A stretch of 64,000 nt of DNA, taken from Favolaschia claudopus (lineage: Eukaryota > Basidiomycota > Agaricomycetes > Agaricales > Mycenaceae). The DNA lies in the NCBI GenBank assembly GCA_037176885.1, contig JAWWNJ010000047.1, positions 1,364,001 to 1,428,000 of the forward strand, written 5' to 3'. The position numbers and the translations under genes are program-made. Below are positions 11,772 to 42,231 of the stretch, piece after piece. Position 1 is the first letter of the stretch. The number at the start of each line of letters is the position of its first letter. Below the pieces are notes generated by a model that searched no databases, was not told where the DNA came from, and worked only from the letters and a program-made list of their open reading frames with translations.

Positions 11772-14221
11772 TCAAAGATCCCTCTCCGCCCACTTCACCT
11801 CCTTTGGCGAAGAGGCAGAATCAACCTGCCCCATCTCCATATCGCTCACCGTCACCACATTCTTCATAACGGTAATCACCACGTTATCCGGGCCCTCACT
11901 GCGCGTGTCAAGCCCCAAAGTGCGATTCGCATGGCGTCGTCCGCCGCTGGTGGGAGTCCGAGAGGAGTGCGAATCGTCTCCGGAGAGACCGTCGCGGGAT
12001 CGCTCGGAGAGGGTGAGGATGAAGCGGCCGCTGTAGATCATGGTGACGGCGAAGCCGAGGGAGGAGCTGCGAAGGTAGAATTAAACGTAAGTCGATTGTA
12101 TTGCCTGATGAAAACACTGCGTACGCTGCTGATTGTAAAACAGGATCTTGGTCTTGGAAGAAGATCAAGTTGACGATGTTCATCGCTGGGCAAGGCATCA
12201 GCGAAGGAAACTTGAACGCATGAAAGCCGACTCACAGGTAAGCGCCACAAAATACATGATCCCGTCCTCGATCATCATCTTTGCGAGTCTGCTGAGTCTG
12301 TTATCGGAAGGTCATTGTCAGTGATTACTCGAAACGTGCGAACAATGCAGAATCCAACTCACGGCGCACGTATGGCTGTAATAGTGTAACATTATTATTT
12401 GTTGCACCGCTACAGGGATTTTGGCACCCAGATACGCACCTAATGGAGATTTTCCACAATTTGTGCACAGGTCGGCAAAAAAATACACAACATGTATTCC
12501 AGAGGGGAAAAATACACTGCTGCACATAGTTTGTCGGAAAATACACAGGTCTTTGGGATATCAGGATCTTGGCCCGTCAACGATCATCAGTTGGCATCTG
12601 ATCCAAAATCACCGACAGGTTTTCCCTGTTTTGTACCTGTACCTATAGCGCCTGTATATCAAACCCATTGTGTCCATGAATTCAGATCGGGATCTAACAT
12701 TGCTCCAAAGATATATTTCAAATTGCCAGAGCTCGCTGGCTTCCTTGAGTGGTTCAATCGAATACATTACTGGAACTGCATTTCTTGTGTCCAATCTGAT
12801 ATTTTTGGAAAAAAGGAAGATGAAGGAAGGTAGAGAAATCATATAATTGTACTGTAGGTACTCTATGTACTACTGTCTCAGGCACCGAACGATGCCGTGC
12901 AGAGAAAGAAAAACAGCTTGAAAATGAACTCGAAAGGCTAGCCAATGCTTGGGCCCTTGATCCGTTGCCGAGATCGGTTGATCATCAGTCCGGGGCTTAC
13001 TGCCGATGGATCGGAAAATGCCGTACCTGTGCGTTTTTTCTTCTTCTGAAGACGAACCTGTGTATATTTTGGAGGGTGTGCATTTTTTCTGAATTTAAGG
13101 CGTGTGTGTTTGCTTAATAATGTTACAGTATTACCCCCATACGCACGACTACTATTGGAAAACTTCCACAAATAGACGGCGGTTAGACTCAAGGCGCCGA
13201 TGTCGAAGAGCCTCCAGTAAAAGGTCAGTTTCCCTATTATTGCTGAAAGTCAGGGGAAATTACTAACAAGGTACCAGCGTAGAACAGGGAGGCTACTTTC
13301 ACGCCTGGAAGATTGCCGCTTGTACAACTATTAAGGCAAGGAATCAGCAAATTAAATTGAAGAATAATTGAAAGCAAAAGCACCTTCCGTTATTGTGAAC
13401 CGCTGTCGAATCATGATGGATGGTGAGCGAGGGTTGGCAATTGAATGATGCCGAGACTCACGAACGCGCTTCCAGAACGTGGCGGCAAATTCTGCCTGAG
13501 CATAAGATAAGATCCATAGTGAGACTTCGGTTCTGCTGAGAAAATGAAACGCATTGACACTCACCGCCCCAGAAATCAAAAACAGTCCGACGAGCATGTA
13601 CAACACCACGCTCGATTTTCGCGACACGGCGTAGGTTCTATTCTTCCAGTCAGTCATCGGCGAAAAGTCGCAACACCAACCCTTCAAGGCTGAGTCAAGG
13701 GAGCACGTACCTTAAAGAAAGAATGACTTGCGACACAATGTACAAGAATACTGGAAAGCTTGGTGAGTCATCATTGCTGAGAAGCTATAATAACTGAACG
13801 AAATTTAAACGCACGTTTAAAAATAGGGAACAGCCAAAAGAATTGGTTGCATTGCGCCGTCGTGAACCCATGATGAAAGAATCCGAACGCGCCGATGAGG
13901 AGAGCCGTTGCGCCGAGAATGCGTAGGAGGATGAACAGGTTGCATGCGATACTGTGTGCGTACGCGTTGAGGTGAGACTTCATAGAAAGATGGGAGACTC
14001 GGAGACGTACGTCATATTGAAAATCCCCTTCTGCTTTGCGTAGAGCCGATATTCCACCGGTATGGTTTGCATGAAGCTACCCAACGCAACGTGAGCATGG
14101 TCTAGATCTCCTTCCTTCGAAGCTTCGATGTTGGATGGACACATTGAACGCACTCGAATAACGCGATAGCATACGCCGCAACGCGCAGGTATGCTGCGAT
14201 TTGGAGATTCGTGGCAGGCAT
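11772..14221 (-). CDS. Multi-pass membrane protein of an Agaricomycete orphan family, carrying a transposon at an exon end
   Basis: Twelve exons: 14221-14154, 14076-14011, 13951-13815, 13750-13711, 13637-13565, 13495-13462, 13402-13384, 13327-13275, 13233-13143, 12297-12236, 12185-12125, 12066-11772; total 999 nt, 332 aa. Hydrophobic helices alternate with short loops: LRVAAYAIALF, IACNLFILLRIL, LLIGAFGFFHHGF, VSQVILSLRTYAVSR, SVVLYMLVGLFLISGA, LFDIGALSLTAVYLW, MYFVAL, NIVNLIFF, FAVTMIYSGRFIL. The pattern ...GFFHHGF..C...SQ(V/I)ILS-RTYA.SR...C-T-S-G-N... is shared by many mushroom proteins of unknown role. The tail is polar and cytoplasmic-looking. The intron 13142-12298 contains a 771-bp transposon inserted two bases before the original donor. 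Using the GTATGG donor made by the insertion keeps the frame and costs one codon; the ancestral donor GTGAGT survives at about 12356-12351. Confidence 0.8.
12371..13141 (-). mobile_element. Non-autonomous DNA element B (TATGG ends, 6-bp TSD), inside an intron
   Basis: Terminal inverted repeats of about 29 bp: left TATGGCTGTAATAGTGTAAC.. and right (reverse complement) TATGGGGGTAATACTGTAAC.., both continuing ATTATTA. Flanks CGCACG at 12365-12370 and 13142-13147 form a 6-bp target duplication. Subterminal repeats of the type AAAANNNCACAGGT occur on both arms pointing inwards, the usual look of transposase-binding sites. There is no transposase frame. Read in the gene's direction, the duplication ends in G and the element begins TATGG, so the junction reads C|GTATGG, a good 5' splice site. 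Confidence 0.82.
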
Positions 14222-30521: not shown

Positions 30522-33111
30522 ATGCACCGGTGTTGGCACATTTCCGAGTTGAGACACAAGATATTCGAGAGTTTGGGGGAACATGGTGAAGACCCCAACA
30601 TAGAACTGTCTCGGTTGGCAGTCACCTGCCGCGAATTTCATGTTGACGCCGTGGATCTACTCTGGGAGGTCCAATACGGCGTCGATAATCTACTCAAATG
30701 CCTTCCTCCCACCACCTGGAAGATTCACGATGGACGATTTGTACGTACTTCACTTTCCAACAAACGCTTGATATTGAGTTCAACTATATCAGATCATTGT
30801 GTCGCGACTCATGAAGGAAAACTGGGATCGAGTGCTATATTACTCGTCCAAGATCAAATATTTCTCCGATGAACCGAGATCCCCTAAGGCACTGATTTTG
30901 GACGTTTCCGTGTTCAAGTCCATCTGCCTCCGAGTCTCTCTAGATCTGTCTCCAGTGCCTCTTCTTCCAAACTTAAGAGCCCTAGAATGCCACACTAGCT
31001 CACCTCTTTTCCTCTATCTACCTTCACTCGTTGGGTCGGATTTTCTCGGGATTGACTCGGAGATCCCCCTCACTGACTCTACTTGGTGGTTTCCGAACTG
31101 GCCAAAACTCGCCAGCTGTTGTCACGCTCTGGAAGTATTGACCATACACAATGATGACAATGAAGGCAATCGTGGTTCACCGGAGGAGCGGCGGAGGAGG
31201 CAGGAATGGGCTTCTTGCTTCATCCTGACGCTAGATTGCGCAAACTTGCGTAGCATCAGCGTGGGCGATGTAACTCGTGAAGCATACAGCTATATCTCCC
31301 ATCTCAAGAACCTCGAAGTCATGCGAATTCGCCGCCTACCCGATGACAAGTCCTGTCTAGATGACGTCGCGTTGCCTGCCTTGCGTAAATTGTGGCTGGA
31401 ACAATCTGATTCTGCCTCTATAACCATTTTGCTCGACCATCTCCGGGCGGAGAGTTTAGATTTCGTGCGTTTATCTGCCATCCAGATCAACATACCCCTC
31501 GAGTCGACACCGGGAGAATTCATTACCAAGATTCTTTCATGTTGTTCCTCCCTGTGCACGACTGTCGATATCCGTGTTGACGCAGACTCAGCAGCACTTC
31601 AGTCCGCAGGCATGAACCCACTGCTGGAGTTGTCAAATCTCAAAATGCTGCATCTTTCTTATCCTACAATAGAAGGAATAGATGATGCCTTCGTCGAGCG
31701 CATGGCATCTGCTTGGCCCAATCTGATTGAGCTCTGGATAAGTACGCAATCTAAACCCCACTATGCTAGGTATCCTTCTATCATGTCCCTACGAACCTTG
31801 GCAGCCAATTGCTCGCGGCTGAGCATCCTCTCACTGGATGTGGACGTATGGCAGACATACTGTGCAAAAAGTTTTCGTCGACAACTTCTCCAAATTGACA
31901 CATTTTGCGACAACTTTTAGTCTGGCGGCAACTTCGGCAGGATGCAACTTCTATGGCAACAACTTCAAGTTGCTGCAACTTTCTGAATGACAACTTCACA
32001 GAGCTCAACCTAGATGGCCATTAGCACATGTTGAATTCCTCGTGATGCAGGTTACATGTTTGTGAAAAGTTCGGTTTCATTTCCATCATGCCGTGTGATA
32101 TAATATTGATCCGCCGCCATGCGCCGAACAGTTGTGGATGGTTTTCTACAAAGACAGCACTGGTAGTTTTGGTGTCTAAAGCTCAATAAGCCGCAGGCAT
32201 ACTGTATCCTACCCTACCTTAGAATTGTCTGAAGGGTCAAAATTCTATATCGCTTTGACTCAAAGACATTCCGTGGTACATCAGATCAAGAGAACTTCGT
32301 TGAAAAGATTGTACCACTGGAATATATACTCACACATCTCACACACCCAATTCCTCTCTGTACTTGGCGGCTAAGCTGACATATATCTGCCTTCAGAATC
32401 TAGATAGCAAAACCTTCATTCAGAAAATCCTCCCGAGGATTGAAGGGGCATCAGGGCCGGATAACTTACCAAAGATGGCGGTCCTCAGTATCTACCTATG
32501 CAAGAATATTCAATATCTCGTCTATCCAACCGGTATACTGCAGGTAAGCTGTCTTGTACCGAACTTGATCACAGTCGGCAACGCCGTAGCCGGCGAGTCC
32601 CGGATCATTGATCAAATGTTACTGCCGACATTTGAAAAGAGGTGAACGGAAGAACTTGCTGCTTGCCATTTTGATCCTGCGTATCCTTGATCATTCTAAA
32701 AACAAAGTTGCACAACTCCGAAGTTGCTTCCCGGACAAGTTGCAGTTGCCAAAGCTGAAGTTGCACCGAAGCTGAAGTTGTACACAAGGAAAGTTGTTCA
32801 TTTTTCCGCTGTAATTCGGAGCTAACTTGAAAATACTTTTTGCACAGTATATCGCCCATATGGACGCTACTGGAACCATTGATATTCCCGTTCAAGATAC
32901 GCACAGCCCCCCAATTCGCAATCTACTCAAGTCGTTTAACGCGGGGCATTCGCCTATCGGTGACCCGGCTCAAGTAGCAATATTTCTGCTCAACGTTTTC
33001 CCTAAGCTTTCGACAATCGAGTGCTCTTTGCCGAGAAAAGACCAGAACAAGATCAAATGGAGCGTCGTGAGCCAGGTAGTTCGACGTTATCAGACGGGGG
33101 AAACTGTATGA
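30522..33111 (+). CDS. F-box-like / leucine-rich repeat protein (paralogue 2), interrupted by transposon-derived intron
   Basis: Exons 30522-30740 and 30793-31845, then after element A 32848-33111: 219, 1053 and 264 nt, 511 aa, the same size as the three paralogues (506-526). It starts MHRCWHISELRHKIFESLGEHG, keeps the first intron at the paralogues' position, and ends in the family's last LRR and tail. Element A sits between codons for ...SLDVD and ATGTIDIP: the paralogues have ...LFLQIDATHIP at this point, showing the break is exact. If the element is not spliced, translation would run 25 codons into it and stop at 31920. If spliced from GTATGG (31846) to TTTTTGCACAG (32847), the frame is kept with six extra residues (YIAHMD). 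A CTAAC branch site lies about 20 bases before the acceptor. Confidence 0.75.
31847..32860 (+). mobile_element. Non-autonomous DNA element A (TATGG ends, 6-bp TSD), inside a coding exon
   Basis: Ends: left TATGGCAGACATACTGTGC.. and right (reverse complement) TATGGGCGATATACTGTGC.., both followed by AAAAAG. The target duplication is TGGACG at 31841-31846 and 32861-32866. Each subterminal arm holds six or seven (A/G)CAACTT(C/T) repeats within ~150 bases, all pointing inward. The 1014-bp interior has no transposase. The right end carries GCTAAC..CTTTTTGCACAG, a complete branch site, tract and acceptor on the gene's strand. Because the ends are inverted copies, the left end has the same acceptor on the other strand. 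Confidence 0.88.
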
Positions 33112-33456
33112 GTGATAACAGACATGGTTTACATTGAACCTAGAATACGGTAGTTTCTGCTTTCTGTATCATTGACTTGAGTGAATTGGACAATGGTTGA
33201 AGCTACACCTTGCGTGATACGCCGGAACTAAAACGATAATTTTCGCAGCACAGTCATTGGGAGACTTGGTGAAATTTGCGAGCTGAGATTTGAGTCGTTA
33301 AGAGAATCGCTCGGAAATTTGCGAGAGGCCACGAATGTTGCGGTACCCCGCGACCTGACTTGGGGTTTGGTCGCCGAACCCAGGCGCGAAAAGGCAAAAG
33401 CATCTATATAATTGAACTGGTGTATTGTGAGAGGGATTCACTACTTCGCAACTCCT
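33112..33456. other. Intergenic between convergent genes
   Basis: Shared 3' flanks of the F-box gene (plus) and cupin gene (minus). No other feature. Confidence 0.6.
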
Positions 33457-36438: not shown

Positions 36439-39400
36439 ATGCCCCTACCTCAAAATGCGTCAGAAGCTCGACTACAAAATACCGTCGTCTCCCTCAGTCT
36501 GGGCCTAAAGCTTCTGAACACTCTCCACGAGTTAAATATTCCGTTTGCCCAGCTTATGTCCAGCACGGTTCTCTCCCTCGTCAACGTGGTGCAGGTGTGT
36601 TACTCAGTTCCAGGATTGCTTCAGGCTTACGCTTGCCGTGTCAGAACGTCAAGAGGAATCGCGAAGAATGCATCCAACTACTGGAACACATCCAACGATT
36701 CATTTACGCAATCTCCGAGATCTACCTACAGTCCGAGACGGGAGACTTCTCTCCGATGGTGCTGGTAAGCATTGGAGAATTCACACAGTGAGTGAATCCA
36801 GATCCCATTATCCTCAAGACTCCTGTTCCGATCACACTCTACAGGACTCTACAAAAAACACACACATTCATCGAGGCGCAGCAAGACGGAAACAAACTCC
36901 GTTCTTTTTTCCGACAGACTGAGATGAGCAGTCTTTTGAAGGATTGTCAGACTGGTTTGGAGCAAGCTTTGGCGAATCTCAATGTATGGCGAGCTTTCCC
37001 TCCCGGCTCGATTCTAATTTTCGATACTTTGACAGATCCATGTTCGACACCAAACCTGGACCAACGTGAACGAGTTCAATGCGATATTGGAGAATACACA
37101 TACCCAACTTCTTCAATTAGCCTCGACCACATCTGAATATGGGAGTTCGATAGACAAGTCGTCTTCAGTAAGCGTTCGGTGTTTTCGGGAGAACAAAAAT
37201 CACTGCTGATGTGTTCTGTGTCAGATTTACCGCGGTGGAAGTGACTCATTCATCAGGTTAATTTTTTTCTGGACAATGCAATAATCGCTGAACGCCACCG
37301 TCACAGCTCGAGATCCTTCTCATTACTCCCAGCCACCCCGAAAATATTCTACGGCCGCGACTCAGAGGTCGACACAATCATGACCATCCTCACCGACCCT
37401 TCACCGCGCATCCCTATCCTCGGCGGTGCCGGAATGGGTAAAACCGCTCTCGCCAGAACAGTTCTCAACCACCCAGACACTTGCTTAATGTTCAAGGAAC
37501 GCGTCTTCGTTAGCGCCGAGTCTGCGACAACGAGTAACGAGCTGGTTGCATTGATAGCGTTGAATGTTGGCTTGGAGCCGGGTCGGGATGTGACGCAGGC
37601 GGTACTCAAATATTTCAAGCAGTCAACGGCATCGGTGCTCTTGGTTCTAGATAATCTGGAGACTCCCTGGGAACCCACACAATCACGGGCTGCGATCGAA
37701 GACGTTTTAGCTTTGCTTGCGGATATTCCGCATCTCGCCCTCATCGTAAGAAATATATTACCTCTGATAAGATACCATGCTGATGTCGATGCAACAGGTT
37801 ACATTACGAGGGGCAGAGCGCCCAGGCAAAGTTCGCTGGAGCCGTCCCTTTCTCTCCCCGCTACCACCATTATCGCCCGAAGCCGCGCGGAATGTGTTCA
37901 TGGATATCTGCGATGAAGCAGAGGAAAGCAGTCCCGCAGAATTGAAACAACTTCTCGATTTAACGGATTGTATGCCTCTAGCGATCGATCTCATCGCACA
38001 TATTGCCGATTACGAAGGCGTGGCTGACACTCTGGAGCGATGGGAGACGCAGAAAACGGGACTGCTTTCGATGGGTAATGACCGGAGGTCAAATCTCGAT
38101 TTGTCGATCGCTCTATCGTTCTCGAGTGCGAGGATGACCCCTGGAAGTAAGGAGTTGTTGAGCCTTCTCTCAATCCTCCCGGATGGCCTTGCCGAGGTCG
38201 AATTAATCCAGGCCAATCTTCCCATTCCTGATATTCTTAGATGCAAGTCCATTCTTCTGGCGACTTCGCTAGCATATCAGGAGAACGGACAACGTCTTCG
38301 ATGCCTCACTCCTGTTCGCGAATATATCCACCAGCTGCATCCACCTTCACAACGACTCGCTCATCCTCTGCGAAACCACTTCCATTCCCTCCTCGAGCTC
38401 TACCGAAAGCACGACGGCGAATTGCTGCAACCTGTCGTTCACCAGATCACTCCGAATCTCGGGAACCTACAAGAGGTTTTGCATCAGGGGCTGGCTGCCA
38501 ACGAAAATAGTGACTTCGCCGAAGATATCTACTGCATCTTATCGCTCAATGTGTTCTACCGCGTTAGCCGGGAGATATGTACTCCCCTCATGAACGAAAT
38601 AGGGTCCATGCCACACGACTCTGCGGATCATAGGCTTGCAGCCAGCATTCTGGTTGAAAGGCTTCAGTCTTACAGCCAGGATCCGAGCTTCATACCGCAG
38701 GATTTGATCTCCGAAGCCGAGACTCATTTTGAACATTTTACGGATATCGAGCTGAAAGGTATGCTAGATTCAAACTCAATCAGATTCGACTCAATGCCAA
38801 GCTGACTTATCCTAATAGCTCGCCTTTATTTGGCCGCAGGTATCCATTTTCTGCGGCATCGCTCGAATCTTGCCCAGGCCAGGGATTACCTCGAAAAAAC
38901 TCTTTCGCTGTCCAAAGAGTGCGGAATAGCTAGCATTAACTGTAGTGCGCTTCTAGGGCTTGCGCGCATCAACATGCAAAGCGGGAACGTCGATAAAGCC
39001 CAAGCCTGTGCCCGAGAGGCTCAGCAACTCGCACAATTATCCGGCAACTTCTACGACGGAGCTCGCGCACGGTATATTGATGCGGGGTGTTTGATGCAAA
39101 TGGGCGACTACCAGTCCAGTGTCCTTCAATTGACGATGGCGAGAGAGCTTCTGTCGCTTTGTGGAATGGCGCGGGGCCATGTTGATCAAGAAATCACGAT
39201 TTATCAAGCGGAGGTGCATTTCCTCAAGTCCGAATACGTGGAGGCGAAACAGATCTACGCCGAGATGCTGAAGGACTCGTCGGCGGATCAAAACCCGCAT
39301 GCCTTTGCTTGCGCGCTTCTCAACCTCGCGGGAGTTGAGGTCTTGGTTGGAGAGCCTACGGAGGGGGTGAGACGGAGGTTAAACGAAGCGAAGAGAATAT

Positions 39401-39990
39401 TCACAGATCACAAGTATCTCTCAGGCGCGACCTACTGCGATGCTACGTTGGCGCATCTTCATCTGCGAGACCACGAGACAGCGCAGGCAAAGCGAATCTT
39501 CGATGAATGCTTGCGCTTACAGTGGGGAGTCGAGAATCAGACCGTTGGCTATTGCTTGGAGCGACTGGCCGATGTCATGCAGTGGGGCGGTGCCCAATGC
39601 TTTGACTTCACTTGGCCCGTCGTGTATCTCGCCTTTGCCTTCAACGTCAAGGAGAAACTGGCCCTCTACAAGGCTTGCATGTCTCTCGGTGACGTCTTTC
39701 TTTCCATTGACGACAAGGAATCCGCACGCACTCTGTTCGAGGTAGCGCTCGGGGGGTTCCATTACATGGATGTTCACCACAGCCGTGCTCAATGCTTGCT
39801 TCGCCTCGGGAATATTGCAGAACGCACGGGAGAAAGGGTTCGAGCACGCGAGTATTGGAATGCGGCGTGTGCGTTGTTCGAGCGGTCCTTTCAGCACGAG
39901 CAGGCCGCGGAGATCAGGAAGAAACTCGATAGCGGGAGTAGTGACGAAGTAGATATCGAGATAGAGAGACTCAGGCCTCCAGTTTCTTAG
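36439..39990 (+). CDS. NLR-like STAND NTPase with TPR repeats
   Basis: Eight exons: 36439-36594, 36645-36787, 36845-36983, 37036-37167, 37225-37256, 37307-37745, 37798-38758, 38819-39990; 3174 nt, 1057 aa. The N-terminal ~190 residues are all-helical (MLKL/HeLo-like arrangement seen in mushroom NLRs). After a Gly-Arg-Asp linker (KIFYGRDSEVDTI) comes a P-loop GGAGMGKT at about 240-247 and Walker B VLLVLDN at about 311-317, the NB-ARC/NACHT-like core. The winged-helix part has MPLAIDLIA (GLPLAL-like). From about residue 668 the protein is tetratricopeptide repeats (ARLYLAAGIHFLRHRSNLAQARDYLEKTLSLSK...). Fungal NLRs act in heterokaryon incompatibility, programmed cell death or symbiont recognition, with TPRs sensing ligand; that role is inferred. 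Confidence 0.9.
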
Positions 39991-40072
39991 TTTCCTTCGC
40001 CTGGCAAAGTCTGCATAGATAACGATCCTAACATAATTTACGCGCCCGAGCACGATTTAAATCATTCAGCTC

Positions 40073-42231
40073 TCAATCGAAGGGAACGTTCTCCACCCAA
40101 TGTTCGACGATAGATTTAACGAGCTTCGGCTGATCATGAGCAATCTATTCATTCGGTCGTTAGTTGAATAATAAGCAAAATGCGCAAATACGACGCACGA
40201 AGTGCCCTCCTCCGTCAATCAAAATCCACGTCATATTCCCAGCACCCTCGCCCACGACTCGGACGGTAGCTTCCTCGGCGGCTGTGGGCCAAGGGACGTC
40301 CGGGGCACGGAGAAATTCTTCTTGGAAGGGTGATTTGATGAGTTTTAACTGCGAAATTTAAAGGCGGAGCGAGCATAATAATAAGTTGAGTAAGTAGCGA
40401 ATTAATTTGAGAGTTTAGAGGCGAAAGAAGAAAGACGGCGTACGAATGACATGATTCCGTGATAATTGCAGTTTGCGTCCTTCGATCCGACGTAATCTGA
40501 GATGGCTTTGGTGAGGAGATCTAGAGGTATAGCTAACGAGCCACTCACGAAGCAATCGAATTCCAGAGCGGAGAAGGGGTTCATAGAGCAGATACGCAGA
40601 TTGCATGCTGAGTGGTTTCAGTTAGTCACGATATCTCTGGGCATTGTGGGAAGCTTACTTACGTGTCTCCGTAACTATAGAACTCGTTGAACACTTGCTC
40701 GCTAAGGTGAATGAAATTTCTATGAGCGTCTACGCCGAGTGCGGTCTTGACATCCGAACGATGGAAAAAAGCGGACGCCCAGCCGAAATCTGGAGGAAGA
40801 CAGCCGAGCGGGTCATCAGAGACGCACTACGACGACGATTAATATTTGGAATTGGGGAAAGGAAGTAAGTATCAAGGGAATCACTCACCTTCTTACGATA
40901 ATCCTCGCCAACAACTCCGTGCATATCACCAGATCTGAGATACCAACATAACTCATGGGATTTCTTGCGAAGCTCAGGGTTCCATTCGGGGCTTTGTTCA
41001 GCAATCCTGATGCTATCGAGACACGCCGGGAGACGTTCGTACATGTGCGAGCATGTAGAGGCGTTGTACATCTCCACGGGCCCGTGGCAGGTCGTTTGCA
41101 GGAACCAGGTGAAATGCGATGTCGCATCCTCGAGAAAAAAAAGATTTGAGGTCGATAACGTCACAGAGAGCGGAGACCGACTTACAGACAGGGGGTTGCT
41201 GAGCATGAGTGACTCGAGGTTGATGTGGCGAGCCCCGGGCTGGCCTGCGCCTGCTGCGAGAGCGAGATTTTGTTCGTGGATTACTGTTGCGATGTGAGGG
41301 ACGTAGGTTCCGCCGTATGAGCCGCCAGAAAGAACGAATTTGTTTCTGAAAGCGGTATGTGTTATCCGACTTCGTCAAGATGAAAAAAAAACAAAGCTTG
41401 CTTCGAAAGGTGCGGATACAATCGGAAGAATTTCTGAAGAAAGTCGTATGTGTCGATAGCGGCGTCGCGACTATTATTGACCATTCGCCCGTAAGAAAAG
41501 CCGACTCCCACAGGCTGCGGTGTTGAGATTAGCGAATATGAATCAAGAAAGATGGGAGACTGGACCGACGTGGTCGAGTGCCAATAAATTGTAGTGTTCT
41601 TGGCTCTGCATCAGCTGTGCTATCGTCAATGTATGAGAACATACCGGTCCAGCGATTCGGATTCGGTTTGGTGGTCCCGTTTTCAGCGGAGAGACACGGG
41701 CCCTGTGCCATCATTGGGTTCATCATCCCACTCGTTCCGGGGCCGCCGCCGATGGTCATACTAGCTCATATCAGCTTCGAAGAAATGCGGTACGACTCTA
41801 CGAGTTTCCATCACGTACATGATTGGTGCATTCGCTGCATCCTGCTCCGCTTCAAAGTACCTAAGATTTACTATTCATTTCATGATTGTGAGCAGGAACT
41901 AGAGGCCGTACCAGAAAAACAAGCGTTTGGGCGAGTCTTCGCTATCTCCCTTCAACCCGATATGGCCCGAATGCGATATACCTGGACCGTCAACGACGGG
42001 ACAAATATCCTCCACAGTTTTCACATGCGCGTAGAATGGTTGAAGCGTTGCGCTCCAGGCATTCGATGTCCGAGAGCGATTCCAACACAAGAAGGCGAGA
42101 GTTAAGACACATCCAAGGAGCAAACGCGACGTCCTTGTGGACGAGGGCGGTGTCTGTGACGCAATGAACGGGGCTTGGTGAGGGAGGATAGACGCCTCCT
42201 TCTGCTTCGACTTCGGGGCCGCTAGCATCAT
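40073..42231 (-). CDS. Serine carboxypeptidase, family S10
   Basis: Twelve exons: 42231-41912, 41860-41819, 41760-41645, 41598-41570, 41514-41420, 41345-41186, 41128-40897, 40789-40663, 40607-40549, 40496-40444, 40348-40199, 40144-40073; 1455 nt, 484 aa. The enzyme removes C-terminal residues from peptides in the secretory pathway or outside. A membrane-anchor/signal-like stretch RLLLGCVLTLAFLCW sits near residue 40. Landmarks: FFWYFEAE, GGGPGTSGMMN with AQGPC, GVGFSYG, GGSYGGTYV (catalytic Ser about 210), NA-x-x-C, YVGSKDANCNY (Asp about 400), GGGHFIAHDQP (His about 460). All three catalytic residues are present. GGHF replaces the commoner AGHMVP, and GTSG replaces the usual GCSS. Confidence 0.92.

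Follow-up and report, generated by a model that had tools for sequence, protein, structure and literature searches.

The 1,014-bp DNA transposon that lies in the last exon of an F-box-like gene of Favolaschia claudopus is probably a commonplace insertion that truncates a weakly constrained gene and has intron-like ends, and the resemblance to an intron would be a by-product of how its element family is built. F. claudopus is a wood-inhabiting mushroom, and the window analysed here is a stretch of 64,000 nucleotides, C47:1364001-1428000 (+), of its 264.6-Mb assembly; positions are window coordinates unless a contig is named. A non-autonomous IS3EU-like element would have entered the exon recently, in a gene that is presumably dispensable. 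This explanation is supported by the element itself, its target duplication, an empty homologous site, relatives elsewhere in the genome and the absence of detectable constraint after the insertion. The initial annotation had described an element with inverted ends and an exact TGGACG duplication in a coding exon, spliced out as a neutral new intron; the element and its duplication are confirmed and an empty site was found on contig C125, while neutral splicing finds no support in the analysis presented below.

Table 1. Features of the interrupted F-box-like gene and of the element within it, in window coordinates (P0001, public protein R3P38DRAFT_3360599)
Feature	Coordinates	Strand	Basis
Exon 1, F-box-like gene, 73 codons	30522..30740	+	ORF, splice sites; P0001 agrees
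Intron 1, ordinary, 52 nt, GTACGT...TATCAG	30741..30792	+	script-called intron; P0001 agrees
Exon 2, coding part 5' of insertion	30793..31846	+	ORF; homologous to C125
Target site duplication TGGACG, left copy	31841..31846	+	exact; single in empty C125 copy
Potential 5' splice site GTATGG	31846..31851	+	last base of duplication plus element terminus; unused in public model
Non-autonomous IS3EU-like transposon, 1,014 bp	31847..32860	+	inverted repeats, genome relatives, 6-bp duplications
Left terminal inverted repeat	31847..31875	+	inverted-repeat search
Element-internal exon of public model	32406..32543	+	P0001; exact edges inferred from reading DNA
Branch-site-like GCTAAC	32821..32826	+	subterminal, right end, outside 29-nt terminal repeat
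Right terminal inverted repeat	32832..32860	+	inverted-repeat search
Potential 3' splice site CTTTTTGCACAG	32836..32847	+	terminal repeat; used by public model
Target site duplication TGGACG, right copy	32861..32866	+	exact 6 bp
Leftover coding part 3' of insertion, to TGA	32867..33111	+	ORF; homologous to C125

Conceptual translation gives a pre-insertion (empty-site) protein of 505 aa, and the unspliced frame with the element stops after 448 aa. The usual transcript would read into the element and the protein would end at that point, exchanging the last 81 residues of the gene for 24 encoded by the element. The window also has three paralogues, modelled at 520, 526 and 506 aa, that are continuous across the insertion position, as had been noted from the first. 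No Pfam F-box domain was found in the target protein, and a weak LRR_4 match in P0001 was the only one, so the F-box label follows the public name of P0001, the F. claudopus protein of the interrupted gene, and of its relatives.

The C125 copy of the gene is uninterrupted at the insertion site, carries a single duplication-equivalent hexamer, TAGACG, and matches the C47 gene at 79-84% on both sides of the insertion. C125 is a homologous region and not the site of a stray paralogue, because window positions 37000-40200 match C125:573928-577178 at 92%; they also match C46, a third syntenic contig, piecewise at 89-96%. DNA searches for the gene returned matches on C47 and C125 only and none on C46. 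The C125 gene copy is itself broken, by about 5.6 kb (L052/L053, C125:563.9-569.4 kb) bordered by a 9-bp direct repeat, GACGCAATC, recognised by eye. Among the loci studied, several are present in more than one copy (C47/C125/C46; C28/C79/C233; C10 and a 644-kb contig), with 92-93% DNA identity in long matches between homologous copies. The genome report states that 86.8% of BUSCO genes are duplicated in the assembly (PMC10905254), and the sequence comparisons fit an assembly that contains several haplotypes or homoeologues.

Between the C47 and C125 copies dN/dS was 0.45 in exon 1, 0.83 in the 5' part of exon 2, 0.64 over the 143 codons of its 3' part and 0.93 over the 77 codons that follow the insertion, all from a single sequence pair and mostly reflecting pre-insertion time. 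By these ratios the region after the insertion is the least constrained part of the gene; purifying selection on the exon 3' of the insertion receives no support from the value of 0.93, the elapsed time being too short for the test. The terminal branch of the window element measures 0.027 per site, against a dS of 0.21-0.36 between the two gene copies, and on this measure the insertion is young. Since it is young, the dN/dS values would belong mostly to the time before it and the open downstream frame says little; within that frame two internal indels relative to C125 are multiples of three, and the C-terminal tail beyond them has a gap of 14 bases. With dN/dS of 0.45-0.83 the upstream coding sequence shows some constraint, so that decay of the gene was not entirely free, a point against the preferred explanation.

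A genome search with the element gave at least 66 matches, and the terminal motif ATACTGTGCAAAAAGT occurs 259 times in the genome with at most one mismatch, against four occurrences of a reversed control. Exact 6-bp duplications flank 37 of 40 non-redundant insertions, both window insertions counted. The window element itself carries no transposase. The IS3EU superfamily bears an IS3-like transposase. Its families are described as marked by 6-bp target duplications and TAYGG..CCRTA ends (PMC12730594), which the TATGG..CCATA ends of the window element fit; the same source states terminal inverted repeats of more than 30 bp for the TET-bearing families, and those of the window element span 29 nt and are 86% complementary in an ungapped search. 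A candidate autonomous relative of 8,349 bp with closely similar terminal tips, L077 (C21:1003013-1011363), encodes a protein that matches the integrase-core profile PF24764 (E 2e-54), its match to rve (PF00665) falling below that profile's cut-off; its duplication reads as 7 bp by eye. Five of its eight long frames were scanned, and none matched TET/JBP or alpha-kinase. Because of the ends, the 6-bp duplications and the integrase-core protein of L077, the placement of the family as IS3EU-like is well supported at the level of sequence, L077 having been compared with Pfam profiles.

Several further elements were observed. Tips spaced as in L077 also occur at C21:1336834-1345184. The 5.8-kb L051 (C27:429030-434860) was considered as an autonomous copy and rejected, its frames indicating by eye that it is broken by a LINE-like insertion; the DNA that enlarges it has frames judged by eye to be reverse-transcriptase-like and RNase-H-like. 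A second element in the window, at 12371-13141, is flanked by the 6-bp duplication CGCACG and has TATGG..CCATA ends; it belongs to another subfamily, with the tip TATGGCTGTAATAGTGTAAC, and one of its ends likewise has an AG at 13 bases. At L032 two elements of different subfamilies lie about 110 bp apart (C15:621285-622202 and 622314-623314), each flanked by its own exact 6-bp duplication.

How often such an element resembles an intron was counted over sampled copies of the family. From 46 element intervals six loci with the same flanks (L034, L035, L039, L046, L072, L073) were dropped, leaving 40 insertions (80 strands), and removal of six strands without an exact duplication (L037, L038 and the left insertion of L056) left 74 strands from 37 insertions; L069, which gave no end pair, was uncounted and L051 and L077 were excluded. 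The sample is non-random, consisting of the best matches to the window element together with listed terminal-motif pairs. Given the terminus TATGG, any 6-bp target with a final G creates the donor GTATGG; the sampled duplications lean to YRNNYR, and 29 of the 74 strands have G as the last base. In most copies (52/74) the opposite end, through its ACTGTGC, has an AG 13 bases from the element end, and both features coincide in 23 of the 74 insertion-strands (31%). The reading frame is kept in every compatible strand, because 13 nt of terminus and 5 nt of duplication add up to 18 nt, and 60 of the 69 phase cases among the 23 splice-compatible strands are stop-free. A perfect intron look is thus expected for roughly one in four insertions: the transposon and its duplication are beyond chance, and the perfect intron appearance is not.

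Against this background, spliceosomal removal between GTATGG (31846) and CTTTTTGCACAG (32847), which would add six codons and leave the insertion as a new neutral intron, appears unlikely. The positions of the two motifs were read correctly by the initial annotation, and conceptual splicing bears out its arithmetic, since removal of 31846-32847 takes out 1,002 nt in frame and restores a protein of 511 aa; frame, length and motifs therefore fit, with a built-in chance of 23/74 against them. The further suggestion that the element brings its acceptor and its branch site within the terminal repeat stands for the acceptor and falls for GCTAAC. The best hint for splicing is an asymmetry in the branch-like motif CTRAY, which precedes the AG in 16 of the 35 right-type ends and in four of the 39 others (Fisher p = 0.0013, a value that overstates the case because the rows are related), and conservation of subterminal sequence for transposition would also produce it. 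In the subfamily of the window element, 10 of the 11 rows have a CTAAC whose A lies 22 nt ahead of the would-be intron end. In a single thermodynamic fold prediction for 31747-32960 the donor and acceptor are paired in the terminal-repeat stem and the branch-like site is free, a stem that might conceal the splice sites or bring them together.

The size of the would-be intron also counts against its removal by the spliceosome. At 1,002 nt it is about 15-20 times as long as the introns of neighbouring genes: as called by script, the four F-box-like genes in the window have best-consensus introns of 50, 65, 67 and 52 nt, with longer candidates of 82-112 nt also allowed for three of the four. The public model skips the GTATGG donor, and with so recent an insertion the open downstream frame cannot count as evidence, dN/dS being nearest to one in that part. 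A search of the genomic DNA for a retrocopy of the spliced junction (28-base pattern, up to 3 mismatches) gave none. Meanwhile, the acceptor matches the consensus and serves in the public model, which counts against truncation as the whole account. Occasional splicing of the window element is possible, and may use the cryptic GTATGG/CTTTTTGCACAG pair or join internal donors to the CTTTTTGCACAG acceptor.

The public model itself is the basis for a less probable alternative, partial exonisation, in which a predicted transcript would be spliced from about 31743 into the internal exon (about 32406-32543), whose donor GTAAGC at 32544 would then be joined to the terminal-repeat acceptor. P0001 has a structure of that form: it takes the terminal-repeat acceptor (..|YIAHMDATG) but a donor other than GTATGG at 31846, joining the acceptor to an exon inside the element, and the genome report states that mRNA was sequenced for better annotation (PMC10905254). 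The model omits 35 residues, those at the end of exon 2 just ahead of the insertion, which are nearly unchanged in C125 and whose loss speaks against it, and its 3' end departs from the ORF with an exon at about 33144-33197. The genome search gave a single further match to the internal exon, a C128 relative of the element with 58% identity and a stop. As its sole other genomic match is another element copy, capture of a host exon by the element was rejected, and the internal exon resembles a patch made by a gene caller.

The further copies that the initial annotation had proposed to count in introns do exist, and four of the 40 sampled insertions were recognised in host coding sequence; they were picked out visually, with open frames and Pfam matches as the guide, insertions in transposon-gene-like frames (e.g. 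L033, L065, L070) being set aside. Besides the window element they comprise a splice-compatible insertion with the duplication CTCTTG in an F-box gene (L040, C28:1837503-1838467), an insertion in a MYND gene with the duplication TTCTTT and no donor (L057), and one in the gene of an FAD-binding protein in which the donor is present and the AG lost (L066). Two of the four are therefore compatible against 23/74 in the sample, which is not above the chance rate (p = 0.37) in a comparison with no power. Empty homologous sites are seen at the protein level in P0011 and P0012 for L040 and in P0021 for L057. P0021, the sole public protein found for L057, comes from a different contig, represents a copy that lacks the element and has 98% identity over 203 residues. 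Element-bearing gene models were seen for two of the four insertions, and neither has the predicted intron boundaries.

One of these models, P0010, the partial 372-aa model of the L040 gene, is the ground for the weakest alternative, exact non-spliceosomal removal of such elements from RNA at the duplication, or transcription from an unassembled element-free allele, which is very improbable: across the junction P0010 reads exactly as the empty-site protein, its 970-nt removal equals the element plus one duplication copy with none of seven possible placements GT-AG, and its residues flanking the junction differ from those of the homologues P0011 and P0012, but the model is marked partial and may be homology-driven, and that of the window gene has no exact removal. 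For P0010 itself the explanation could lie in an element-free allele, in a homology-driven model or in an unusual RNA process, the first being favoured, since with 86.8% of BUSCO genes duplicated in the assembly an empty allele is the simpler source.

Exact removal of this kind would recall SOS splicing, which is described as acting on animal mRNA through the ligase RTCB, an enzyme absent from the major fungal phyla according to a review (PMC13247085). The terminal inverted repeats of the window element could pair as in that system and the P0010 model shows an exact removal; the animal setting and the ligase set the two apart. In maize, the DNA transposon Ds is said, in work by Giroux et al. 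1994, to have created an intron de novo. The window element would likewise be a DNA transposon acting as an intron, here as a prediction from DNA sequence. Transposons of this class spliced as introns are a kind of event already on record in the literature consulted (PMC9860276; PMC3443670), and together with the introners they provide precedents elsewhere for spliceosomal removal. Introners resemble the window element in being non-autonomous, with inverted repeats and splice sites that derive partly from the duplication, and families that add codons are described, as in Aureococcus (+12 bp; PMC9860276). They differ in size, 1,002 nt standing against family medians of 30-654 nt as given there (PMC9860276), and in that the present case is known from DNA sequence; the fungal carriers named in the sources consulted are ascomycetes (Pezizomycotina). 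The open-licence literature searched showed no description of IS3EU elements as introns.

A wider proposal, that the IS3EU-like families of F. claudopus are ready-made intron cassettes, introner-like and traced to IS3EU in a basidiomycete, appears unlikely. Such a cassette would work through the YRNNYR target preference, which would favour a G before TATGG, and through the ACTGTGC of the opposite end, whose AG would lie at exactly 13 bases from the terminus; with a 6-bp duplication the exonic remainder would be 18 nt, so that any compatible exonic insertion would be frame-neutral once spliced.

For the biology of these elements the truncating insertion is, as it stands, a caution: about a third of the sampled insertion-strands mimic a perfect intron, spliced or not, and the two public models P0001 and P0010 handle such insertions differently. 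Should splicing prove true, a named transposon superfamily would be tied to intron gain in mushrooms, and simple arithmetic would account for frame-neutral insertions.
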